DNA of 64,000 nucleotides from Ornithinimicrobium tianjinense (GTDB taxonomy: Bacteria; Actinomycetota; Actinomycetes; Actinomycetales; Dermatophilaceae): positions 310,001 through 374,000 of the forward strand of contig NZ_BMEM01000003.1 of assembly GCF_014636495.1 (NCBI RefSeq), given 5' to 3'. Below are positions 293 to 30,845 of the stretch, piece after piece; the stretch's first letter is position 1, and each line of letters opens with the position of its first letter. The translations under genes and the position numbers were made by a program. The notes beneath the pieces are model-generated. The model ran no database searches. It was not told the DNA's origin and saw nothing but the letters and a program-made list of their open reading frames with translations.

Positions 293-1240
293 TCAGTCCA
301 TGGCCTCGATCCCGAGCTCGGCCAGCTCGGCGGAGCGCTCGCGGAGGTGCCGCACCACCTCGGCGGGCGCCGGCGCGAAGCCGACGACCTCCTCGACGAC
401 GCGCAGCGGCTCGGTCGTGCGGTAGGAGCGGGTCGGGTTGCCGGGGAAGCGCTTGTCCGTGACGTTGGGGTCGTCCTCGATCCGGCCCAGCGGCTCCACA
501 CGGTAGACGCGCGGCGGCCCGTCGCCGCGCGCGAGCTCCGCGGCCAGCGGCGCGCCGTTCTCCGACGCGGTCAGGTAGATGTGGTTGGCCCTGCGGCGCG
601 AGCCGTAGTTGGAGCTGAAGCCGGGCGTCAGCAGGTCGCCGGGCCGGACGTCCGCCCGCGTGCCGTGGAAGAACGGTCCCGGGTCGTCCACCACCCTCGG
701 CACCGGCGGGGGGTCGCGCAGCAGGCTGTCGAGCCGGGCCATGAGCACCGCGACGCGGTCCGTGCCCCGCGGTGGGCGGGGGTAGCGGCTCAGCACGTCC
801 AGCACCTCCGGCGGCATCCGCCTCGCCGCGCCGTCGACCATGTAGTCGGCGACGACCGCGTCACCACCCGTCGCCAGCTCGGCCGCGCGCGCCGCGTGAG
901 CACCGGCACCGAGGATGTGGCCCACCTGGGTCGGCCTGGCCAGGGGATGGAGGTATGCCGAGGCGCTGGCGTGCGCGGCGGCGCTCGCGGCATACCGGGC
1001 CGCCTCGGTCGGGGCCTCGGCCGCTGCGCGGTGCGCCTCGGTGGCTGCCTCGCGCTGCAGCCGGGACCGGGACGCCCCGTCGGCGAAGGTCCGCGCCGCC
1101 GCGAGGGCAGCCGCGGGCCGGTCGTCGTCGGGGCAGGCCCGACGGAAGATGCCCTGGACCGGCTCGGCGCAGGCGACGGCATACCGCGCCACCGCGCGCA
1201 GCTCCTCGGTGGTGAGCGGGACCTCGGGGGCGGCGTCCAT
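293..1240 (-). CDS. arr: Imm5-like helical domain fused to rifampin ADP-ribosyltransferase (Arr)
   Basis: 315 aa. Residues about 1-170 are an Ala-rich helical domain with the look of the 'putative immunity protein' (Imm5-like) family, including HASASAYLHPLARPTQVGHI. Residues about 185-315 are a full-length Arr domain: FFHGTRADV, NYGSRRRANHIYLT, IEDDPNVTDKRFPGNPTRSY. His192, Tyr222 and Asp257 have exactly the spacing of the catalytic His19, Tyr49 and Asp84 of mycobacterial Arr, which inactivates rifamycins using NAD+. Stand-alone Arr is about 140 aa, so the fusion is unusual. The start at 1240 is chosen over an upstream in-frame start because that would overlap the AlkD gene by about 175 bp. 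Neighbours: 17 bp after the AlkD gene. Real substrate (drug, protein or nucleic acid) is unknown. Confidence 0.85.
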   Translation of the reverse strand: MDAAPEVPLTTEELRAVARYAVACAEPVQGIFRRACPDDDRPAAALAAARTFADGASRSRLQREAATEAHRAAAEAPTEAARYAASAAAHASASAYLHPLARPTQVGHILGAGAHAARAAELATGGDAVVADYMVDGAARRMPPEVLDVLSRYPRPPRGTDRVAVLMARLDSLLRDPPPVPRVVDDPGPFFHGTRADVRPGDLLTPGFSSNYGSRRRANHIYLTASENGAPLAAELARGDGPPRVYRVEPLGRIEDDPNVTDKRFPGNPTRSYRTTEPLRVVEEVVGFAPAPAEVVRHLRERSAELAELGIEAMD

Positions 1241-1257
1241 CTCAGGAGTCTGGCGCC

Positions 1258-1935
1258 TCACGCCTTGCGGCGCACCATCTCCGCGATCCACGTCGGCGCG
1301 TAGGGGGACGTGCACCCCGGCGGCGTCGGGTAGTCCTTGAGCACGCCGAGCCGTTCGCCGATCGCGACCGCACGCTCCCGGTGCTGCGGGTGCTCGATGC
1401 CGATCTGGGCGAGGCAGGTGTTCATCGCCCACTGCAGCCGGTCGGGGGCGGTGCGCATCTGGCCCTCGATCGTGTCCAGCAGGTCCGGCAGGTCCAGCCC
1501 GTCCGGCTTCCGGACGACGCGGTCGCTCGTCAGGGCCCAGCCGGCGCTCGCGACCACGGGGTCCGGGTCGTCGATCCAGGCGGTCCGCAGCGCCTCCGCG
1601 TGCCGGCTCTTCTTCACGACGTAGCCGACCAGCCAGTCGTGCACCTTCGGCGTGCGCGCGTCACGGAGCATCGTGTCGAGGTCGTCCTGCGAGTATGCCG
1701 AGGGCCGGCTCACCAGGATCGCCAGCAGGCGGGCCGCGGTGTTGCCGGTCGCCCAGAGGTCGCGCGCCAGGTCCGGCTGCGTCCCGAGCCGCTTGGCCAC
1801 CGCCCGCAGAGCCCCGAGGTTGACCCCGTGGTCGTCGCCGTGCCGCTCGTTGACGGCGCGGACCCTCGGGTCCTCGAGGGCTGCCAGCTCGGCGAGCAGG
1901 TCGAGCAGCGTCGACGGAGGGGTCGGGGTGGTCAC
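1258..1935 (-). CDS. AlkD-like DNA alkylation repair protein
   Basis: 225 aa, the usual length for the AlkD family of HEAT-like-repeat DNA glycosylases that excise N3- and N7-alkylpurines. It shows the family's helical repeats with DLWATGNTAARLLAILVS and a C-terminal part ending TWIAEMVRRKA. No membrane segment or signal peptide, so cytosolic. It begins only 9 bp after the stop of the membrane CHAT gene and ends 17 bp before the Imm5-Arr gene, so it is probably cotranscribed with both. A DNA-repair enzyme in this company could respond to the same stress as the CHAT protein, or may just be an ordinary gene in the run. Confidence 0.85.
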   Translation of the reverse strand: MTTPTPPSTLLDLLAELAALEDPRVRAVNERHGDDHGVNLGALRAVAKRLGTQPDLARDLWATGNTAARLLAILVSRPSAYSQDDLDTMLRDARTPKVHDWLVGYVVKKSRHAEALRTAWIDDPDPVVASAGWALTSDRVVRKPDGLDLPDLLDTIEGQMRTAPDRLQWAMNTCLAQIGIEHPQHRERAVAIGERLGVLKDYPTPPGCTSPYAPTWIAEMVRRKA

Positions 1936-1944
1936 CGTCCCAAT

Positions 1945-4215
1945 CTAGGGCTGGAGGGTGAGCCGCCCCCACAGGTGGCGATACTTCACGTCGTTGAGCG
2001 CCCTCGCCGGGTTGTTCGACCACATCCCGTTGAGCGCGCCGGGTTCGGTGGTGAAGGCCTGCGCGTCGCTCACGTTGAGGTTCATCGCGAAGGTCGCGCC
2101 AGCGGCGGGTGCCGCATCGACGTGAAGCGCGCTCCACGGCACCGAGGCCTCGACGGTGTAGGTCTTGCCGGCGAAGTCGGTGACCACGACGGCCGTGCCG
2201 CCCCCCAGGCCGGCCGATCCCGTCCCGATGCCGCCGGCCACCGCAGGGTTGATGGCGGTCAGCTGGCTCCCGTCCGCCGTCCACCCGATGATGACGTGCA
2301 CGTCCGCCGGGTCCAGCGTCTCGGTGCTGACCTCGTCGCGCGCGGGCCCGAACTCGAAGTGCACGCTGTCGCCCCGCCACGCCCCGGTGCCCGAGGCAGC
2401 CTGTGACGGGACCGGGTCGTAGACGTGGGCCCACAGGTAGAGGTTGTCGTCGTCCCAGCCCAGTCGCCAGGACGTCTGCAGGTCCCGTGCCTCCACCGGT
2501 CCCCCTTCGGGGGCGACGAGGGTGGCTGTGTCGTAGATGCTTCCGACGGGCCACTCGCCGGCGTCACCGTCCAGGACGACGCCCTCGACGCGGTAGGCGT
2601 CCATCCAGACCGCGGGCTGGGCGGGAATCATGACCGCAGGCTGTCGCGTGGGGCCCGAGGCGGTCGGCTCGGTGACGGGCGGCTGGGACGTGTCCTCCGA
2701 CGTCTGAGGCGTGGTGCCCTCGTCGGTGGGCGAGGGGGTGGGCTCGGAGGACGCCTCGCCGCCGCTGGAGGTCGGGCCGGCGCCGGGCGGGGTCGTCCGC
2801 GTCCCGTCGTCCTCTCCGCTGAGCAGGGCCCAGGACACGGCCCCGACGACCCCTGCGGCGGCGAGTCCGCCGATGGTGAGCAGAGCCCCGCGCCGGCGCG
2901 GCGGCGGCTCCTCGTGGTGGAGCTCCAGCGCGCGCGTGTCCAGAAGGCGGGGCGGAGCGTCAGGCTGGGGCTGGGGCTGGGGCTCGGGCTCGGGCTCGGG
3001 CGCGGCCTCTGCAGGCACGGACTCCTTGTGCTCTGCCGGCTCGGGCTCGGGCACGACCTCTTCGGGCACGGCCACGGCAGGCACGGGCTCCGCCGGCGTC
3101 TCCACCTCGATGTTCTGGAAGACGAGCCCGTCAGGCGACTCCATGAAGACGGTCGGGGTGGCCCACTCCGATCCGTACGTCGCGAACAGGGCCTTGCGGG
3201 CATAGGTCACCGCCTGGTCCACGGGGTACTCGTCCGCGATGGCCCCGTAGAACTCCTCGGTGAAGGTCATCGCCGCCTTGTCCGTGATGGGGAACTGCAT
3301 CGCCACGACGGCACCCGCGCTGCGCTGGATCAGGCCCTGCGCCATCCCGGCGAACGGGTCCTGCGCGTCGCCCGAGGCGGTCCGGCACGCGTTGAGGACG
3401 ATGAGCCGCAGTGGGTCGTGATCGTTGACGTACGGCCCCAGGACCGCTGCGGTGACCGGCACGCTGCGGCCGTACCTGTCGCAGAAGTAGAGGACGCCGT
3501 CCTCCCGCGCCTCGTCGAAGTCCCCGTGCCCGATGAAGTGGAGGACGTGCGCAGTGTGCGTGCGCAGCCAGGTGCCGAGCGAGGCCAGGGTCGGCTCGCC
3601 GAGCCGGTGGAGCACGACGGTGCCCGCCTCGACCCTCTCCTTCAGCGCCGCCTGGGCCCGGGCCCACTCCGCCTCGACGTCCAGCTCCTGCAGGTCGGTG
3701 GGGGCGGAGATGATCACGAGCACGTGGAGCGCCCCGCCGACCGCGAGGGGACGCAGGGTCTGCGGCACGTCGAGGTAGCGCACGACCGGCGTGCGCTCGG
3801 ACTGGGCCAGGTAGGTGTTGTTCTCCTTGTTGAACAGGAGCTCCCACGGCAGTCCCGCGATCTGCGGGGCACCGGCGAGGGCGAGCCGCAGCCGCAGCCC
3901 CTTGCCCTGCGCACCGACGACGTCCCGGCTCCGGGACCAGGCCTGCGCGACCTCCCCGGTGAAGATCGCGTCGAAGAGGGCGGTGCCGAGCTCTCGGCCG
4001 GCCGTGACCCGAGCGTCGCCCGGGCCACGACGCACGGTCGCGCGGCCGGGGTCGAGCTTGAGCAGGAGGTTCTCCAGCTGCGTGTCACCGAACGGCAGGG
4101 TGAACCGCTGCTCGGCCGAGGCCCCGGCGGGGGAGGCGACCACCCGGGCGCGGTAGGGCCGCCCGGGGACCGCCTCGATGAGGAGGTCGAAGTTGTCGTA
4201 CGTCCGCGCGGTCAT
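1945..4215 (-). CDS. Membrane-anchored CHAT protease with extracytoplasmic CBM9-like domain
   Basis: 756 aa. Residues about 100-370 form a CHAT (caspase-like) peptidase domain; the dyad is His230 in HFIGHGDFD and Cys277 in LIVLNACRTASG, so it looks active. Residues 371-440 are a Pro/Glu/Gln-rich linker. Arg440-Arg442 precede one membrane helix at about 444-466, which predicts the CHAT domain inside and the C-terminus outside. A Ser/Thr/Pro linker follows. Residues about 545-756 resemble a family 9 carbohydrate-binding (DOMON-like) beta-sandwich: DGDAGEW, WDDDNLYLWAHVYD, GDSVHFEF. AGGAGC precedes the ATG by a good distance. Inference: ligand binding outside controls proteolysis inside. Downstream genes (AlkD, Imm5-Arr, SEC-C) are tightly spaced. 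The substrate is unknown; the soluble CHAT protein and the hydrolase across the divergent region are candidates. Confidence 0.85.
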   Translation of the reverse strand: MTARTYDNFDLLIEAVPGRPYRARVVASPAGASAEQRFTLPFGDTQLENLLLKLDPGRATVRRGPGDARVTAGRELGTALFDAIFTGEVAQAWSRSRDVVGAQGKGLRLRLALAGAPQIAGLPWELLFNKENNTYLAQSERTPVVRYLDVPQTLRPLAVGGALHVLVIISAPTDLQELDVEAEWARAQAALKERVEAGTVVLHRLGEPTLASLGTWLRTHTAHVLHFIGHGDFDEAREDGVLYFCDRYGRSVPVTAAVLGPYVNDHDPLRLIVLNACRTASGDAQDPFAGMAQGLIQRSAGAVVAMQFPITDKAAMTFTEEFYGAIADEYPVDQAVTYARKALFATYGSEWATPTVFMESPDGLVFQNIEVETPAEPVPAVAVPEEVVPEPEPAEHKESVPAEAAPEPEPEPQPQPQPDAPPRLLDTRALELHHEEPPPRRRGALLTIGGLAAAGVVGAVSWALLSGEDDGTRTTPPGAGPTSSGGEASSEPTPSPTDEGTTPQTSEDTSQPPVTEPTASGPTRQPAVMIPAQPAVWMDAYRVEGVVLDGDAGEWPVGSIYDTATLVAPEGGPVEARDLQTSWRLGWDDDNLYLWAHVYDPVPSQAASGTGAWRGDSVHFEFGPARDEVSTETLDPADVHVIIGWTADGSQLTAINPAVAGGIGTGSAGLGGGTAVVVTDFAGKTYTVEASVPWSALHVDAAPAAGATFAMNLNVSDAQAFTTEPGALNGMWSNNPARALNDVKYRHLWGRLTLQP

Positions 4216-4288
4216 CTCGTGCTCCTTCCGCCCGGCTGCTGCCGTCCTGACACCGGATCAGAGGACGTGGCAGAACACCTGATACATG

Positions 4289-4335
4289 GTCTACCCAAAG
4301 CCGTGCTTCTGGTGGAAAATGGCCGCACGCAGGTC
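4289..4335 (+). repeat. Copy 1 of a ~48-bp dispersed repeat flanking the CHAT genes
   Basis: Begins GGTCTACCCAAAGC and ends CGCAGGTC. Nearly identical to 6743-6791; the loop base and a few central bases differ. It contains an imperfect hairpin, CCAAAGC / GCTTCTGG, with a 3-nt loop and one bulge. It is less GC-rich than its surroundings. It lies 73 bp upstream of the membrane CHAT gene start and 70 bp after the end of the HTH-membrane gene. No family is recognised. Confidence 0.8.
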
Positions 4336-4405
4336 CGGGGCCCGCGGCCGGGGAGCGCCGGTGGACGAGCAGGCGCTCGCCTTTCCCGTCGGTGGGCCGA
4401 GTCGG

Positions 4406-5281
4406 TCAGCGGCCCAGCGTCGTCGCCATACCGACGACGACGGCCGTGAGCCAGCATGCCTGAGACAGGAGGCTGGACAGGACGACCTTGCGGCGCGCGC
4501 CGGGGGCCAGGCTGCGCAGCCCGTCGGACGTGGTGCCCGCGAGGTGGTGACGCAGTTGCGCCGTCGCCACGCCGTTGAGCGCCAGGACGAGGACGCAGAC
4601 CAGCTTGAGCCAGGGCAGCGGGCGGCCAAGGTCTGGCGCGAGGAGGCCGCCGGTGACGAAGAGGACGGTGAGCCCGGCCCAGATGAGCGGGGAGAGCGCG
4701 TGGCTGAGCCGGATCGACTCCTCGATCTGGCGCTGGCGCCGCTCCCACAGCAGCCCGTGCCAGTCGAGCGCCATGACAGAGCCGAAGGAGACCGTCATGG
4801 CGAGCAGGTGCAGCGTCACGAGGACGGGGCGGAGCGGCTCGGGGTCCGGCGCGACCCAGGCGAGGAGGAGGCACAGCAGCCAGCCCGCGACGACGAGGGC
4901 GTAGCGTCGGGTCATCGACAGGCTCTCGCCCCAACGGCTGATGGCGTCCCGCGGCGCGGATGCCAGGACGTGCAGCCGTTGGAGCGCGGCCGCCTGCTCG
5001 TCGCTCGGCTCTGGCTCTGGCTCTGGCTCTGGGTCGGGCTCTGGCTCGGCGTCGGGCGGATGCTCGGTCTCCTCGACGACCACCGGCTGGACGTCCGCGT
5101 CGGTCGGTGCGGACGCCTTCGGCTCGGCCGCCGTCATGGTCGGAGGGACCGTGGCTGCTTTGACCCAACGGCGCACCGTGCTCGGGTGCACGCCGACGTC
5201 GGCCGCCACGCGGGTGGCTGGCTCGCCCCCTCGCACGCGGATGACGGCCGCATCGCGGCGGTCGGCGGAGGACGTGCTCAC
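4406..5281 (-). CDS. HTH domain fused to a five-helix membrane protein
   Basis: 291 aa with a GTG start. Residues about 8-42 look like a helix-turn-helix of the transposase/Sigma70-r4 type, with VAADVGVHPSTVRRWVKAA. Residues about 70-92 are an acidic Pro-Glu repeat encoded by a hexanucleotide repeat near 5013-5050. Residues about 125-290 contain five hydrophobic segments, including YALVVAGWLLCLLLAWVAP and LPWLKLVCVLVLALNG, with a CopD/DUF2214-like appearance. A DNA-binding head tied to a membrane bundle suggests a one-component membrane sensor or a protein anchored to DNA, but neither has been shown. It lies between the membrane CHAT gene and the SPFH gene on the same strand. The shared EP-rich linkers in this protein and the CHAT protein are notable. 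Confidence 0.65.
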   Translation of the reverse strand: MSTSSADRRDAAVIRVRGGEPATRVAADVGVHPSTVRRWVKAATVPPTMTAAEPKASAPTDADVQPVVVEETEHPPDAEPEPDPEPEPEPEPSDEQAAALQRLHVLASAPRDAISRWGESLSMTRRYALVVAGWLLCLLLAWVAPDPEPLRPVLVTLHLLAMTVSFGSVMALDWHGLLWERRQRQIEESIRLSHALSPLIWAGLTVLFVTGGLLAPDLGRPLPWLKLVCVLVLALNGVATAQLRHHLAGTTSDGLRSLAPGARRKVVLSSLLSQACWLTAVVVGMATTLGR

Positions 5282-5432
5282 GGGCGAGTCCGACCTGGGT
5301 CTGGGCGTATGCCCGCCTGGTCACCTCGAGTCATCATGAGGCTCATTCGAGTGGCTGACGCCACATGCGCGAAACCCGGCCCCAGAGTCACCGGTCGCCC
5401 GCCTGCGCGCGCCGTCCGCCGGCTGCCCGGCC

Positions 5433-6419
5433 CTACGGCGAGGAGCTGGGCGCGCCGGGCCAGACCACCGTCGGCTGGTAAGGGTTGCCACCCTGGTCGA
5501 TCAACTGGGCGCGGAGGTAGTCCTCGACCGAGGGGTAGCCCTCGATCTCGGCCTGCTGCTGCAGCGCTCGCTGCTTGGCGACCTTGGTCTCGGACTCCGC
5601 GACCGCCAGGTCGGCGTCTGCGGCCTCGCGCTTGGCGTTGGCCTCGGCGACCGCGGTCTGCTCCCGGGCGATGGCCGCCTTGAGCTCGTCGTTGACCGGG
5701 TCCGGCTTGCCGACCGTGACCTGGATGTTGGTGAAGTACTCGCCACCGGTCCGGTCCTGGATGCGCTTGGGCAGCTCGGCGGCCAGGGTCTTCTCGAACT
5801 CGGCGCGGATGGTCTCGTCGTTCCAGATCTCCTGCCAGGGGTACTTCTGGGCCAGGCGGACCAGCGTCACCTCGGTGGGCTGGCCGACGGCGTAGTTGAG
5901 CAGGCTGGTCCACCCGTCGGACGGCTGGCGTTCGCTGTCCATCCACGCGGAGTACTTCGTGCCCATGTTGCGGTGGAAGTCCATGAGCGCGTCGCAGTCC
6001 TGGGTGAGGTCCATCGTCACCACCACGGGGACCGTCAGCTCCGCAGGGGCCGAGGCGTTGGACACCACGACGTAGGGCGTGCGCTCGGCCCCCTCGCCGC
6101 CGGTGGCGTCCCAGCTGATCTGGCGGGCGGGGTACCAGAAGACGTCGTTGGTGAACTGGTTCTGCGTCGTCTCCGGCGCGATGCACCCCATCAGGTTGGG
6201 GTCGGTCGGGATGAGGATGTAGCCGTTCTGCACCACCCCGACCTCGCCGGACTGCGCCGACTGGAAGGCGGTGGCGGCGGAGCCCAGGCCGACGACGGCC
6301 AGGAGGCCGGCGACCATCCCGGCGATGATCAGACCCCACCGCAGCCGACGGCGCTGAGGGGCGGTGCGGCCTTCGGTGGAGGCGGTGGTCTCGGCGGCGG
6401 CGTCTCGGCGGAGGATCAT
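5433..6419 (-). CDS. SPFH/Band 7 (prohibitin-like) membrane protein
   Basis: 328 aa. One membrane helix at about 29-49 follows an Arg-rich cytosolic start. The SPFH core includes PVVVTMDLTQDC and an acidic-basic coiled coil, roughly 245-300, reading EQTAVAEANAKREAADADL, typical of stomatin/prohibitin-type proteins that build large membrane rings or microdomains. A Pro-rich tail ends the protein. The start at 6419 overlaps the stop of the 73-aa membrane protein by ATGA, so the two are translationally coupled. SPFH proteins are recurrent partners of membrane proteases; here it may scaffold the membrane CHAT protease, which is inference from neighbourhood only. Confidence 0.8.
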   Translation of the reverse strand: MILRRDAAAETTASTEGRTAPQRRRLRWGLIIAGMVAGLLAVVGLGSAATAFQSAQSGEVGVVQNGYILIPTDPNLMGCIAPETTQNQFTNDVFWYPARQISWDATGGEGAERTPYVVVSNASAPAELTVPVVVTMDLTQDCDALMDFHRNMGTKYSAWMDSERQPSDGWTSLLNYAVGQPTEVTLVRLAQKYPWQEIWNDETIRAEFEKTLAAELPKRIQDRTGGEYFTNIQVTVGKPDPVNDELKAAIAREQTAVAEANAKREAADADLAVAESETKVAKQRALQQQAEIEGYPSVEDYLRAQLIDQGGNPYQPTVVWPGAPSSSP

Positions 6420-6637
6420 GCCTCGTCCTCTCGGGTATGGCGTGGCTCGCCCTCGTCGTCGCGCGGACGGGGGAGCGGCGGCTGCGGGGTGTCGATGCGG
6501 GGCAGGTCGTCCGGCGGTGCGGGGCGGACCGGGGGACTGTGGCGGGAGCCTGCCATCCGCCCGGCCGAGAAGACCAGCCACAGAACACCGGCCACGATCA
6601 GCATCGTGACCACGGTCAGGACGACCACCCGGAGCAT
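6416..6637 (-). CDS. Small single-pass membrane protein coupled to the SPFH gene
   Basis: 73 aa. An N-terminal membrane helix (about residues 3-25, VVVLTVVTMLIVAGVLWLVF) is followed by a Pro/Arg/Asp-rich cytosolic tail containing PAPPDDLPRI. Its stop overlaps the SPFH start in an ATGA, which supports that it is translated. No family recognised; the layout resembles small accessory subunits of stomatin-like complexes. Confidence 0.65.
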   Translation of the reverse strand: MLRVVVLTVVTMLIVAGVLWLVFSAGRMAGSRHSPPVRPAPPDDLPRIDTPQPPLPRPRDDEGEPRHTREDEA

Positions 6638-6742
6638 CGACTCACCTTCCCCCTGCGGACCAGGGCCCAGCTGCCCTGCACCCCCACGTGTGCCGCAGTC
6701 TAGAGGGTGCGCCGTGCGTGGAAAAAGCGGGAGGCCGGGGGC

Positions 6743-6791
6743 GGTCTACCCAAAGCTGTGCTTCTGGTGGAAAACTGGGCTTACGCAGGTC
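6743..6791 (+). repeat. Copy 2 of the ~48-bp dispersed repeat, just ahead of the soluble CHAT gene
   Basis: Matches 4289-4335 over its whole length with about eight differences and two extra bases. It keeps the CCAAAGC / GCTTCTGG hairpin and the GTGGAAAA box. It ends 22 bp before the ATG of the soluble CHAT gene, so it would be in that gene's leader or core promoter. Same plus-strand orientation as copy 1, although the two CHAT genes point opposite ways. Confidence 0.8.
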
Positions 6792-6813
6792 CCGACACCA
6801 GGCAGGGGTCGCC

Positions 6814-9219
6814 ATGGGTGCAGCAGTCGACGGATGGATGGCGCTGGCCGACGCCGTGGCCGCCTCGCCGGACCGATCGACCGCCGACCGGGTGGCCGCC
6901 GTGGCCCCCGGGATGGGTCTGACGGGAGAGGAGCGGGCCGCCCTCGAGCTGGCCGTGGTGGGCCGGCAGGACCCCGGCGGGGCCTGGCTCCGGCACGTCC
7001 TGGCCACGGCGCCGTCACGCCCGGAGAGGCCGGACCGCTCCCGGCCCTTCACCGACGCGGAGATGGACGAGGCGATGGCCACCGCCTCCCGGCTCGCCGA
7101 CGACCCGGGGATGCTCGAGGCGCCCGACGGCTGGGAGCACCTGTCCCGGCTCGAGGCGTTGCCCGCGCCGACCGCGGCCCAGCTCCTGGAGGGGCTCGTG
7201 ACCCGTGGCGGGCACGACGGGCTCGTGGCGGCCACCCGCGTGGCGGAGCGAGTCCCGACCGGCCGGGTCGGCGTCGACGAGCTCCTGGCGACCGCACCGT
7301 CGATGCCCCGCGAGGACCTCCTCGGGCTGGCGGTCCTGCTGGGCCGCGTGCCGCCGGAGCGCTACCTCCCGGCCCTCGCGCGGGCGCTCGCCGACCGCCC
7401 GGACCCGATCCTCGCCGAGCTCCTGCAGCTGATGGTCGAGCAGCGGGAGACCTACGCCACGGCCGGTGCGGAGCCTCCTCCTGCCGCGGCGCCGGCGCCG
7501 CCTCCTCCTGCCGCGGCCCCGGCCCCACCGTCCGAGCCGGTCTACCGCAGCGGTCCCCGGTCAGCCGGCCCCGAGGCGCCGGCAGCGACGCCGGAGGCGA
7601 CGCGCACCGCATACCCCCGCCTGGACCTGACCACCGGCACGGCGCGGCCGGACGTGGTCGTCGTCGACACCCCGTTCACCGTCACCGTGGGGCTGGCTCC
7701 GCGCAAGAGCGCCGGGCTGGTGTCGACCGGCCGGTTCGACCTCGGCGAGGACCCGATCGACATCGTGCTGACCTACGACCCCGGCTCGCTGCGCCTGGAG
7801 GGCGGGGAGCGGCACACGCTCACCGTCACCGCCGACGATCCCTACCCGACCGTCGACGTGACCGTGACCGCGCTCTACCTCGAGGACGCACCAGCGCACC
7901 GGCGGATCGGCGTGCACTACCTGCGCGGCTCGCAGGTGGTCGCGGTGGCGTGGCGGCGCTTCGTGGCGGTCGACGAGGCGTCGCTCGTGGCCGCCGTACC
8001 GGCGCCGCCGGCCGACGAGGCCGAGCTGCTCGACCTCGGCCCGGTGCTCACCGAGGAGGCGCCCGATCTCGTCCTCGCGGTATGCCGTGCCGACACCGGC
8101 TCCGGGGACCGCTGGGTCTGGTCGACGTATGCCGCGGACCCGACGCTGCCCGTCACCGACGCGCCGGACGTGGCGACGCTGGACGGCGAGGTGGCGGAGT
8201 TCGCGACGGCGACGCGGCGTGCCGTGCAGTTCTCGACCAACGCCTACTCCGACTTCCTCACGCTCGCCGGCCGCGCCGAGCGCATCGGGGCCTCCGTCCC
8301 GGCGGCCGTCCATCAGGCCGTCACCGCCCTGCTGACCCGGTCGGCCGCGGACCCGGCCGCCACGGCACCGACCGTGCTCCTCCTCACCGAGGAGCTGCAG
8401 ATCCCCTGGGAGCTGGCCGCCCTCGACCCGCCGCCGCGGACGCCGTGGGGCGGGACGTCGCCGTTCCTCGGCGCGCACGTCGCGATCAGCCGCTGGCCGC
8501 TGACCGACCGCGTCCCGCGGCCGTCCCCGCGCACCACCGTGGACGTGACGTCGGCCGCCGTGGTCACCGCCGACTACAGCGGGATCGCCGGGTGGGGGCG
8601 TCTGGAGGCCGCGCTCGCCGAGGCCGACGAGGTGGGGCAGCTCTTCGCCCCGCCGGCGACCAGGGTCGAGCCCGCGCTCACCGCCGTCATCGACCTCATG
8701 CGGGGCACGCCGCAGGCCGACATCGTCCACGTCGCCCTGCACGGGCAGTTCGACAACCAGGGGGAGCAGGAGGGCATCGTGCTCCTCGACCGGGGCGTCG
8801 ACGGGGTGGCCCGGGCGCAGTTCCTCACGCCCGTGCAGCTGGAGACCGGCACCCTGGCGTCCGGGCCGTTCGTCTTCCTCAACGCCTGCCAGGTCGGCGC
8901 CGACGAACGCGTCCTCGGCGGCTACGGCGGGTTCGCCTCCACGCTGCTGCGGATCGGGGCGAGCGGTGTGGTCGCCCCGCTGTGGAACATCGACGACGTC
9001 GTCGCCTCCGAGGTCGCCCGGGCCGTGTATGCCGCCGCGCTCGGCCCGCCCTCGGCCGGTGACGGGGACAGCCTGGTCACGGTCGCCGAGGCGGTCCGGG
9101 CGCAGCGGGCCCGCTACCAGGAGGACGCCGTCCGCTCGAGCACCCCCGGCGTCATCGCGACGCTGGTCGCCTTCCAGGTCTTCGGCCACCCCCGCCTGCG
9201 CCTGCGCAGGGCGGGCTGA
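6814..9219 (+). CDS. Soluble CHAT-domain protease
   Basis: 801 aa, no signal or membrane helix. Residues about 1-210 are helical and Ala/Glu-rich, which may be an adaptor region. Residues about 215-245 form a Pro/Ala linker. Residues about 265-400 appear to be a beta-rich domain with Val/Thr-rich strands (PFTVTVGLAP, HTLTVTADD). The C-terminal CHAT domain carries His643 in VHVALHGQFDNQ and Cys692 in FVFLNACQVG, followed by GYGGFASTLLRIGASGVVAPLWNIDD, typical of the family (quoted piecewise: GYGGFASTLL, GASGVVAPLW). The catalytic dyad is intact. The alpha/beta hydrolase gene starts 33 bp downstream and the two are probably cotranscribed. Starts further upstream would read through the 48-bp repeat, so the ATG at 6814 is preferred. 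It may act as a protease switched on by the N-terminal or beta domain. Confidence 0.85.
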   Translation: MGAAVDGWMALADAVAASPDRSTADRVAAVAPGMGLTGEERAALELAVVGRQDPGGAWLRHVLATAPSRPERPDRSRPFTDAEMDEAMATASRLADDPGMLEAPDGWEHLSRLEALPAPTAAQLLEGLVTRGGHDGLVAATRVAERVPTGRVGVDELLATAPSMPREDLLGLAVLLGRVPPERYLPALARALADRPDPILAELLQLMVEQRETYATAGAEPPPAAAPAPPPPAAAPAPPSEPVYRSGPRSAGPEAPAATPEATRTAYPRLDLTTGTARPDVVVVDTPFTVTVGLAPRKSAGLVSTGRFDLGEDPIDIVLTYDPGSLRLEGGERHTLTVTADDPYPTVDVTVTALYLEDAPAHRRIGVHYLRGSQVVAVAWRRFVAVDEASLVAAVPAPPADEAELLDLGPVLTEEAPDLVLAVCRADTGSGDRWVWSTYAADPTLPVTDAPDVATLDGEVAEFATATRRAVQFSTNAYSDFLTLAGRAERIGASVPAAVHQAVTALLTRSAADPAATAPTVLLLTEELQIPWELAALDPPPRTPWGGTSPFLGAHVAISRWPLTDRVPRPSPRTTVDVTSAAVVTADYSGIAGWGRLEAALAEADEVGQLFAPPATRVEPALTAVIDLMRGTPQADIVHVALHGQFDNQGEQEGIVLLDRGVDGVARAQFLTPVQLETGTLASGPFVFLNACQVGADERVLGGYGGFASTLLRIGASGVVAPLWNIDDVVASEVARAVYAAALGPPSAGDGDSLVTVAEAVRAQRARYQEDAVRSSTPGVIATLVAFQVFGHPRLRLRRAG

Positions 9220-9252
9220 CACGCCATACCCACCACGCGACGAGGAGTCGAC

Positions 9253-10740
9253 ATGCCCGAGCAGCTCCGCCCCGAGGGGATCCAGGTCCACGTCGGCGAC
9301 GTCGTGATCACCACGCCCGGACTGTCCGGCACCGTGGAGGTGCACCCGCCCGGCAGCCCGGGCATGCGCGCCGCCGAGGACACCACGCCGGTGCTCGCCG
9401 AGGCGCTGGTCGACGCCGGGCTCGTCGAGCAGCTGACCGTCGAGATCAGCCAGCAGAGCGAGCTCGACGGGCGGGGCGGCACGCGCGCGGGTGGCGACGG
9501 CGACCGGGTCACGGTGGAGGTGCCCGGGCCCGGCGAGGGCAACGGCCAGGTGCTCCTGTATGCCGCGGAGGACGGCTCCCTCACGTGGCACTACCCGGAC
9601 TCCGTCGCGCCCGAGCAGGTGGCCACCCGGGGCGGGGAGCGCCGGACCTACTCCATCCCGCGGGCTGTCGTGGCGCCGGAGTCCGCCGAGGGGACCTCGC
9701 GCGGGCTGCTCGGCGCCCTGGGGTCCAAGCTGCTCAAGGTGCTGGTCTTCCCGCTGGTGGAGCCGGCGCTGGGGAAGGCGGCGAACCACTTCGCGGCCCG
9801 GTGGGAGGCGAAGAGGCGGCCGGGGCTGGTGCGGTGGTACACCCCCGAGACGCGGCTCGTCCCGTCCTCCGAGGCGACGCCGCTGACGCGGGAGGAGTGG
9901 GGCCGGCTGGGGCAGGGGCCGGTGCTGATGCTCGTGCACGGGACCTTCTCCACGGCCCGGGGCGGCTTCGGGGCGCTGCCGGAGCCCGTGCTCGGCGAGC
10001 TGCACCAGCGTTACGGCGGGCGGGTCGTCGCCTGGGAGCACCCGTCGATCTCGCTCACGCCCCGCGCCAACGTGGAGTGGCTGGCCGGCCAGCTGACCAG
10101 CGTCGAGGCCCCCGACCTCACCCTGGACGTCGTCACCCACTCACGCGGGGGCCTCGTTGGCCGGGCGCTCGCCGAGCGCGGCGAGGAGCTGGGGATCGAC
10201 GGCCGGGCGAGCGTGCGGACCCTCGTCATGGTCGCCCCGCCCAACGCCGGCACCGCGCTCGCCGACGTGAAGAACGTCCGGCACCTGCTCGACCGCGTCA
10301 CCAACCTGGTGCAGTTCATCCCCGCGGCCGCGGGCGGGGACGTCCTCGGGCCGGTGCTGGAGGTCGTCAAGCAGGTCGCGGTCGGCGCCTTCTCCGGGCT
10401 CGAGGGCATCATGGCGATGGACCCCGGCGGCACCGACCTCGCGGACTTCAACACCGGAAAGGCGACGGGCACGGCATACCGGGTCATCAGTGCGGAGTAT
10501 GAGCCGCCGCACGGCAGCTCGCTCGGCCGGATCGCCCGCGACGCCGGGACGGACCTGGTCTTCGGCGCCCTCGCGAACGACCTCGTGGTGCCCACCGGGG
10601 GAGCGTGGGACCTGCCGCAGACACCCGGGTTCCCGGTCGAGGAACGCCTCGTGCTGGACAAGGCGCTCGGGGTGGACCACTCGACGTTCTTCGGGCGCGA
10701 GGACGTCACCGCGAGGTTGCTGGACTGGCTGCCCGGCTAG
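9253..10740 (+). CDS. Lipase-like alpha/beta hydrolase paired with CHAT protease
   Basis: 495 aa. Residues about 1-150 form an acidic beta-rich N-terminal domain. Residues about 165-185 are amphipathic and hydrophobic (LGSKLLKVLVFPLVEPAL). The hydrolase core has the oxyanion motif LMLVHGTFS (His229), the nucleophile elbow VVTHSRGG (Ser297), Asp443 in ANDLVVPTGG and His476 in GVDHSTFF. The elbow is H-S-R-G-G rather than the usual G-x-S-x-G. Such proteins (annotated DUF7379-type in databases, as I recall) often sit beside CHAT genes. Inference: a membrane-lipid or acyl hydrolase that is held inactive and released or cleaved by the CHAT protease. It begins 33 bp after the CHAT gene; a purine permease follows 42 bp later. 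Confidence 0.75.
   Translation: MPEQLRPEGIQVHVGDVVITTPGLSGTVEVHPPGSPGMRAAEDTTPVLAEALVDAGLVEQLTVEISQQSELDGRGGTRAGGDGDRVTVEVPGPGEGNGQVLLYAAEDGSLTWHYPDSVAPEQVATRGGERRTYSIPRAVVAPESAEGTSRGLLGALGSKLLKVLVFPLVEPALGKAANHFAARWEAKRRPGLVRWYTPETRLVPSSEATPLTREEWGRLGQGPVLMLVHGTFSTARGGFGALPEPVLGELHQRYGGRVVAWEHPSISLTPRANVEWLAGQLTSVEAPDLTLDVVTHSRGGLVGRALAERGEELGIDGRASVRTLVMVAPPNAGTALADVKNVRHLLDRVTNLVQFIPAAAGGDVLGPVLEVVKQVAVGAFSGLEGIMAMDPGGTDLADFNTGKATGTAYRVISAEYEPPHGSSLGRIARDAGTDLVFGALANDLVVPTGGAWDLPQTPGFPVEERLVLDKALGVDHSTFFGREDVTARLLDWLPG

Positions 10741-29252: not shown

Positions 29253-30845
<1,593 letters not shown>

Follow-up and report, generated by a model that had tools for sequence, protein, structure and literature searches.

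The window analyzed here is a stretch of 64,000 nucleotides from Ornithinimicrobium tianjinense (contig NZ_BMEM01000003.1, positions 310,001 to 374,000), and its first 11 kb carry two genes for CHAT-family proteases, here called CHAT1 and CHAT2, together with a gene for an alpha/beta-hydrolase (HYD). The original prediction had joined this trio with SPFH, HTH-membrane, AlkD-like and Imm5-Arr genes into a single system of about 10 kb. The genes that it named were all found to be present by Pfam and open reading frame analysis; the single system was not confirmed, since linkage in relatives holds for CHAT1, CHAT2 and the hydrolase only. As far as sequence comparison can establish, these three core genes are a real, conserved unit inside a candidate that was drawn too wide:

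1945..4215, minus strand: CHAT1, with an N-terminal CHAT domain, a Pro/Glu-rich linker, one transmembrane segment and a CBM9-like domain (core gene)
6814..9219, plus strand: CHAT2, with a helical N-terminal domain, a disordered linker, a beta-sandwich and a C-terminal CHAT protease domain (core gene)
9253..10740, plus strand: HYD, with a beta-rich N-terminal region followed by a DUF7379 alpha/beta-hydrolase (core gene)

Relatives and domain limits place the start of CHAT2 at the ATG at 6814, not at 6688.

The core proteins

In CHAT1 the CHAT domain spans amino acids (aa) 75-344, the transmembrane segment aa 443-461 (bases 2833-2889) and the CBM9-like domain aa 570-755, with Pfam matches to CHAT (8.3e-27) and CBM9_1 (5.7e-11). 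Both CHAT proteins pass the 24-bit cut-off of the CHAT family (PF12770), CHAT1 with 94.8 bits and CHAT2 with 64.9 bits. The intact His-Cys dyads that had been claimed for the two proteins were located and lie in invariant alignment columns. That of CHAT1 is formed by H230 (3526-3528) and C277 (3385-3387), which are conserved in 16 of 16 rows of alignment A3 and in 57 of 57 further CHAT1-type rows; A3 holds 16 CHAT1 rows, among them loci L074 and L114 and both copies from L072, and omits the cut L098 and L105. The dyad of CHAT2 (His 8740-8742, Cys 8887-8889) is invariant in 21 of 21 CHAT2 rows. Lysine and arginine are commoner before than after the transmembrane segment in 14 of 15 CHAT1 rows from trio loci, with one tie (54 versus 13 residues; the count omits L114, which lies under the hydrophobicity threshold, L105, which is cut to less than 520 aa, and L074), and an excess before the segment is seen in 49 of the 54 CHAT1-type rows overall that bear one. 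Because of this bias, CHAT1 is probably oriented with its N-terminus inside and its C-terminus outside, its CHAT side facing the cytosol.

The part predicted to lie outside the cell varies. CBM9 was called in 10 of the 16 rows of A3 and a PD40 propeller in 5, and a PQQ propeller takes this place in L054; among the 57 other CHAT1-type rows, 10 carry an FGE-sulfatase domain, 8 carry CBM9 and others carry TPR and propellers, while several have no predicted transmembrane segment. Judged by these domain calls, the outer module of CHAT1, either CBM9 or a PD40 propeller, is exchanged among relatives. The CHAT1 profile matches solved xylanase CBM9 domains (1i82, 2e-7), and its closest solved relative is the SAVED-CHAT structure 8tl0 (E 5.6e-18). 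It had been proposed that the membrane CHAT senses an outside signal; the placement across the membrane that this calls for agrees with the charge bias and with the CBM9 and PD40 ectodomains, and the sensing itself we infer. In Nocardioides ganghwensis (L072, 10001-13958), two tandem CHAT1 copies adjoin a single CHAT2-HYD pair and differ in their outer parts, one having no domain called there and the other PD40.

CHAT2 matches CHAT in Pfam at 1.1e-17, and its AlphaFold model (mean predicted local distance difference test score, pLDDT, 84.2) places a beta-sandwich between the helical N-terminal domain and the CHAT domain; the model and alignment A6 both start three codons inside the gene, at 6823 instead of 6814. 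The best solved structures for the model are Csx29/TPR-CHAT (7zoq, 8.9e-9) and separase (5fby, 4.1e-8), with query TM-scores of about 0.3, and DdvA (8rot, 2.2e-9) is the single sequence match of the CHAT2 profile in the PDB at E <= 0.1. A phage origin was considered and rejected, as CHAT2 has no match among 50,697 phage records. HYD matches DUF7379 at 9.4e-53, and its triad S297/D443/H476 does not vary in any of 19 rows. Within the genus HYD was found in 2 of 31 genomes, the second copy being only 38% identical, and this sporadic occurrence fits an accessory defence gene.

Linkage of the three genes in relatives

A scan with the CHAT1 alignment, using one genome per species, gave 232 relatives, of which the best 80 were analyzed, short and cut loci included. 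In 14 of these 80 loci CHAT1 has full-length CHAT2 and HYD genes no more than a few kb away, and in one further locus, L114, CHAT2 stands beside CHAT1 without HYD; by chance, a HYD gene placed at random in a 4-Mb genome would be expected within a 20-kb locus about 0.4 times per 80, relatedness being ignored in that estimate. Three gene orders were found. The divergent order, seen in the window and in eight other loci, occurs in Intrasporangiaceae (Lapillicoccus, Janibacter, Nostocoides and another metagenome-assembled genome) and in four Nocardioides species; the convergent order, CHAT1 against HYD-CHAT2, occurs in two metagenome-assembled genomes of Acidimicrobiia; and the co-directional order CHAT2-HYD-CHAT1, on one strand, occurs in four Micropruina genomes, with a gap of 9 bp from HYD to CHAT1 in L100. 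Long contigs carry the trio in Janibacter sp. HTCC2649 (L075) and Micropruina glycogenica (L110). In a maximum-likelihood tree of 86 CHAT1 domains the trio loci fall into three separate, well-supported groups, corresponding to Intrasporangiaceae/Nocardioides, Micropruina and Acidimicrobiia. The original prediction had suggested that co-occurrence be sought beyond close relatives, and for the two CHAT genes and the hydrolase gene it was found, in 14 of 80 loci with three orders and three CHAT1 lineages.

The supported branches of the CHAT1 tree force four changes of the trio label, as few as which were reached in 0 of 500 shuffles; one of the four comes from L074 (58% CHAT1), a locus with only 522 bp upstream, so that its trio status cannot be judged. 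Distances among CHAT1, CHAT2 and HYD are congruent (Mantel r 0.93-0.95, 0 of 2000 permutations), also within the divergent group (r 0.65-0.77, 0 to 3 of 2000 permutations); as the host tree was not corrected for, this congruence is read as co-inheritance rather than interaction. By these comparisons the association would either be ancient and often lost or have arisen repeatedly, and linkage has therefore outlived rearrangement either way. Among 99 genomes searched from the same family, 27 gave CHAT1-type matches. In four of them (G007, G087, G065 and G096) a CHAT1 orthologue stands back to back with CHAT2-HYD, in stretches with no SPFH, HTH, AlkD or Arr match; in G071 CHAT2 precedes CHAT1 and HYD is absent, and in G082 neither CHAT2 nor HYD is present. 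Several records are duplicates (L070=L052, L075=L051, L077=L049, L115=L050, L114=L053, L091=L054), and L138 and L149 overlap L057 and the place of L031; the count of 14 in 80 uses only the one scan with the CHAT1 alignment. The HYD frame of L070 is interrupted, giving two pieces. One genome survey, in which five candidates were scored per genome, gave at least 8 of 297.

The hydrolase is associated with CHAT proteases outside the trio as well. L157 (7137-10706) and L158 (7481-11212) encode single proteins that combine HYD with CHAT, as DUF7362-DUF7379-DUF7363-CHAT, with a caspase-type gene immediately downstream in each that is Pfam-confirmed in L157, and in L166 (7092-13191), from the same-genus genome G376, CHAT2 and HYD are followed by a different CHAT protein of 825 aa with its CHAT domain C-terminal. 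Because the trio, the HYD-CHAT fusion with a caspase and the G376 arrangement of CHAT2-HYD with another CHAT all occur, a lipase and two caspase-fold proteases, as predicted from domain content, recur in at least three combinations. Of eight plasmid records with a HYD match, six annotate that match as a CHAT-domain protein.

Neighbouring genes and the repeat-bounded block

The other genes of the candidate system, and two direct repeats, are placed as follows:

293..1240, minus strand: Imm5_like-Arr gene (rifampin ADP-ribosyltransferase), a non-core local neighbour
1258..1935, minus strand: AlkD-like DNA_alkylation gene, a non-core local neighbour
4288..4319, plus strand: 32-bp direct repeat, left copy, which precedes the CHAT1 start by 72 bp
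4406..5281, minus strand: HTH-membrane gene, with an HTH_23-like domain and several membrane segments, non-core, inside the repeat-bounded block
5433..6419, minus strand: SPFH/Band_7 gene (Band_7 1.1e-5), non-core, inside the repeat-bounded block
6416..6637, minus strand: gene for a 73-aa protein with a single transmembrane segment, its stop overlapping the SPFH start (ATGA), inside the repeat-bounded block
6743..6774, plus strand: right copy of the repeat, 31 of 32 positions identical to the left copy, 39 bp upstream of the CHAT2 start

Relatives and domain limits also revised the starts of the SPFH gene (ATG at 6419, not GTG at 6581) and of the Imm5-Arr gene (ATG at 1240, not 1432), whose protein fuses an Imm5_like domain to a rifampin ADP-ribosyltransferase-type domain. 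The small membrane partner that had been assigned to the SPFH protein corresponds to the 73-aa frame overlapping its ATG, for which Pfam gives no match. Rfam and tRNA scans of the window returned nothing.

A system in which an SPFH scaffold and the HTH-membrane, AlkD and Imm5-Arr proteins work alongside the trio, as originally proposed, now appears very improbable and is largely refuted. SPFH proteins can organise membrane complexes, the genes are physically close and AlkD starts 9 bp after the end of CHAT1; against this, homologues of the SPFH, HTH-membrane, AlkD and Imm5-Arr proteins were found at 0 of the 80 CHAT1 loci (phmmer, E <= 1e-5), and the SPFH protein, for which the co-occurrence check thus failed, was found in 1 of 58 relative genomes, which is its own (31 of the 58, its own included, belong to the same genus). 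The four were accordingly rejected as working parts, and by gene content they look like local neighbours outside the core.

The SPFH, HTH-membrane and small membrane genes are moreover bracketed by the repeat, GGTCTACCCAAAGC[C/T]GTGCTTCTGGTGGAAAA, and weaker similarity continues outside its two 32-bp copies. No further copy was found in the 3.31-Mb assembly with the 23-bp core and three mismatches allowed. The block is present between CHAT1 and CHAT2 at 0 of the 8 other divergent loci, where the two genes lie directly back to back, and because of this absence and of the flanking repeats without another copy it looks like a late insertion in this lineage, the repeats being a possible footprint of an unrecognised insertion mechanism. 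The GC content of the block (0.721, versus 0.724 for the window) gives no foreign sign and counts against a foreign origin. No transposase was recognised within the block, where the HTH protein has only weak transposase-type HTH similarity, below the cut-off. In two genomes of the genus an empty site was sought with a purine-permease neighbour as anchor, a comparison that was dropped because the matches to it there are only 40-43% identical.

The block may instead have been gained to regulate or insulate the trio, the repeats being a duplicated promoter or operator with one copy for each CHAT gene, an explanation that would suit their positions 72 and 39 bp upstream of the CHAT starts and the similarity extending past 32 bp. 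This we consider unlikely, as the two copies point the same way while the CHAT genes diverge, and a search of the 700 bp ahead of CHAT1 in eight divergent relatives shows no recognisable repeat (<=12 mismatches of 32).

Proposed mechanism and relation to known systems

Because CHAT1, CHAT2 and HYD adjoin in distantly related actinobacteria in three gene orders, they are probably one death or defence switch. A single three-gene signalling and effector unit working through a receptor-protease-lipase relay is, in our estimate, slightly better than an even prospect. CHAT1 would be its single-pass receptor, the CHAT protease facing the cytosol and the outer module (CBM9 or a PD40 propeller) being interchangeable. 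An envelope event such as phage adsorption, envelope damage or a rival's attack would cluster or alter CHAT1 and switch the protease on; active CHAT1 would then cleave or activate soluble CHAT2, in the manner of an initiator acting on an executioner; CHAT2 would release or activate the lipase-fold HYD, to which it is adjacent, or fused in relatives; and HYD would attack the cell's own membrane lipids, causing growth arrest or death as a defence. The SPFH/HTH/small membrane protein block would be a later insertion that is not needed. We infer the sensing, the protease relay, the lipase activation and the death or defence role, as well as the order of events from sensor to second CHAT to hydrolase, which the original prediction had also drawn. 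The characterised CHAT systems Craspase and SAVED-CHAT react to RNA or nucleotide signals inside the cell; the cascade, if true, would let a bacterial caspase-type response be set off from outside, across the membrane. With three genes, the trio is compact.

Several results weigh against such a relay. CHAT2 and HYD occur in examined stretches without CHAT1 (L064, L065, L153, L154, L155 and L166) and HYD occurs with neither CHAT1 nor CHAT2 in L156, so that CHAT1 may be a dispensable addition. Neither full-length CHAT2 nor HYD is seen at 65 of the 80 CHAT1 loci, some of them on short or cut contigs, and since the 80 were picked from 232 as those most similar to the CHAT1 of the window, the sample favours trio-type relatives. 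The HYD model is moderate (pLDDT 74.0), and its Foldseek matches, bacterial lipases and thioesterases, have query TM-scores of about 0.25-0.36. In PADLOC-DB 2.0.0, CHAT1 matches SAVED_CHAT (5.7e-10) and BovA (4.5e-4) through its CHAT part only, and CHAT2 and HYD have no match. The occurrence of CHAT2-HYD without CHAT1 and of CHAT1-type loci without both partners would suit a pair in which only CHAT2 and HYD are functional together, a caspase and alpha/beta-hydrolase effector of the VMAP kind, with CHAT1 having joined separately and perhaps sensing or cleaving something else; a caspase and hydrolase pairing is already described by Kaur et al. (2020; PMC7159879). That explanation is possible but rather doubtful, as the pair has CHAT1 beside it in three CHAT1 lineages and three orders, including tight co-directional clusters such as L100.

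According to the same paper, VMAP domains of the caspase superfamily invariably have a gene for an alpha/beta-hydrolase as neighbour, and where the vWA component carries a caspase, the VMAP caspase and hydrolase are present in nearly every case (PMC7159879). The likeness of the trio to these MoxR-vWA ternary systems lies in two caspase-fold domains and a hydrolase, CHAT2 and HYD being adjacent here and HYD being fused to CHAT in L157 and L158; the difference is that here the upstream position belongs to a transmembrane CHAT protein. Scans of 18 window genes, reaching base 30716, showed no MoxR or vWA gene, and neither is among the 25 commonest families out of 126 in 101 neighbour genes at 14 trio loci (101 of 103 listed genes being covered). 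The paper also describes EACC1-linked caspases with an N-terminal caspase domain and variable C-terminal parts, some with a transmembrane segment and an extracellular binding domain (PMC7159879). CHAT1 resembles them in its N-terminal caspase-superfamily domain, transmembrane segment and outer domain, whereas that two-gene system as described is without CHAT2 and HYD; no EACC1-named match was seen in the window genes scanned or the neighbour families shown, the Pfam coverage of EACC1 being unchecked.

The only NCBIfam match of CHAT1 is HetF, a cyanobacterial divisome component which has CHAT, then one predicted transmembrane segment, and TPR (PMC8406250). The shared order of N-terminal CHAT and transmembrane segment and the match itself (78 bits, aa 75-372) could point to an envelope or division regulator, in which CHAT1 monitors wall or septum, its CBM9 perhaps binding wall glycans, and tunes CHAT2 and a lipid-remodelling hydrolase. 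Such a role is quite unlikely: sporadic distribution, with CHAT1-type matches in 27 of 99 family genomes and HYD as scarce in the genus as noted above, is unsuited to division, the variable ectodomains suggest recognition, and the ectodomain (CBM9 or PD40, not TPR) and partner genes differ from those of HetF. CHAT1 was rejected as a HetF orthologue, its score lying far under the NCBIfam equivalog cut-off of 1200 bits.

SAVED-CHAT starts a protease cascade. The structure 8tl0 is named as the SAVED-CHAT of type III CRISPR in PMC11417357; CHAT1 differs in being membrane-anchored and in that Pfam calls CHAT and CBM9 only. With no SAVED domain called, it was rejected as a CRISPR accessory protein, although CRISPR arrays and cas genes were not searched for. 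From Craspase TPR-CHAT/Csx29 and separase, CHAT2 differs in N-terminal domains and gene context. DdvA, a transmembrane anti-sigma factor (PDB 8rot), is a membrane CHAT protein, yet its match is to CHAT2, a protein without a predicted membrane role. Elsewhere in PADLOC-DB 2.0.0, weak matches link the HTH-membrane protein to mad1 (0.006) and AlkD to DrmMII (0.09), SPFH and Imm5-Arr have none, and no match is specific and full-length. Two further papers note a metacaspase that bears an extracellular receptor domain (PMC3501461) and a hypermutation target containing CHAT (PMC10907252). The parts of the trio and the caspase/hydrolase pairing are thus already known in kind, since the VMAP pairing, the EACC1 caspases, the HetF order and the receptor metacaspase are published. 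A search of open-licence papers brought no recognised description of the CHAT-TM-CBM9/CHAT/hydrolase trio, and the receptor-CHAT/CHAT/lipase arrangement, in which no MoxR-vWA was seen, appears to be an undescribed variant.

CHAT1-type genes also have other neighbours. A Peptidase_C14-type caspase gene adjoins them without HYD in L131, L138, L146 and L149, weaker caspase matches stand beside one in L141, and clustering places a caspase gene beside all seven of L057-L063, two of which were scanned with Pfam. A Trypco1 gene (named for trypsin partners) lies directly upstream in L084, L104 and L145, and a SIR2-like gene is near in L130. These varied neighbours indicate that the same receptor type has different conflict-type partners. 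More speculatively, and with considerable doubt, single-pass membrane CHAT proteases with exchangeable outer modules (CBM9, PD40 and PQQ propellers, perhaps FGE-type domains) might constitute bacterial 'death receptors' that turn an extracellular signal into a two-protease cascade and membrane breakdown. Each would be coupled to a further protease of the caspase fold, be it CHAT2, a different CHAT or a Peptidase_C14 caspase, and in many cases to a lipase-fold executioner, an arrangement that would resemble animal death receptors with initiator and executioner caspases.

The caspase-paired CHAT-TM-CBM9-type receptors come from Intrasporangiaceae and relatives; the caspase is of about 650 aa in most, and some have tandem receptor copies. 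In two Chloroflexota loci (L094, 7853-9979; L127, 6857-9175) a long CHAT protein (708 and 772 aa, respectively) directly follows the CHAT1-type gene; by clustering the two are one family, unlike CHAT2, and HYD is absent there. The genome of the window itself carries a third CHAT gene, distant from the locus (G000:C1:848567-849226; L002, L067).

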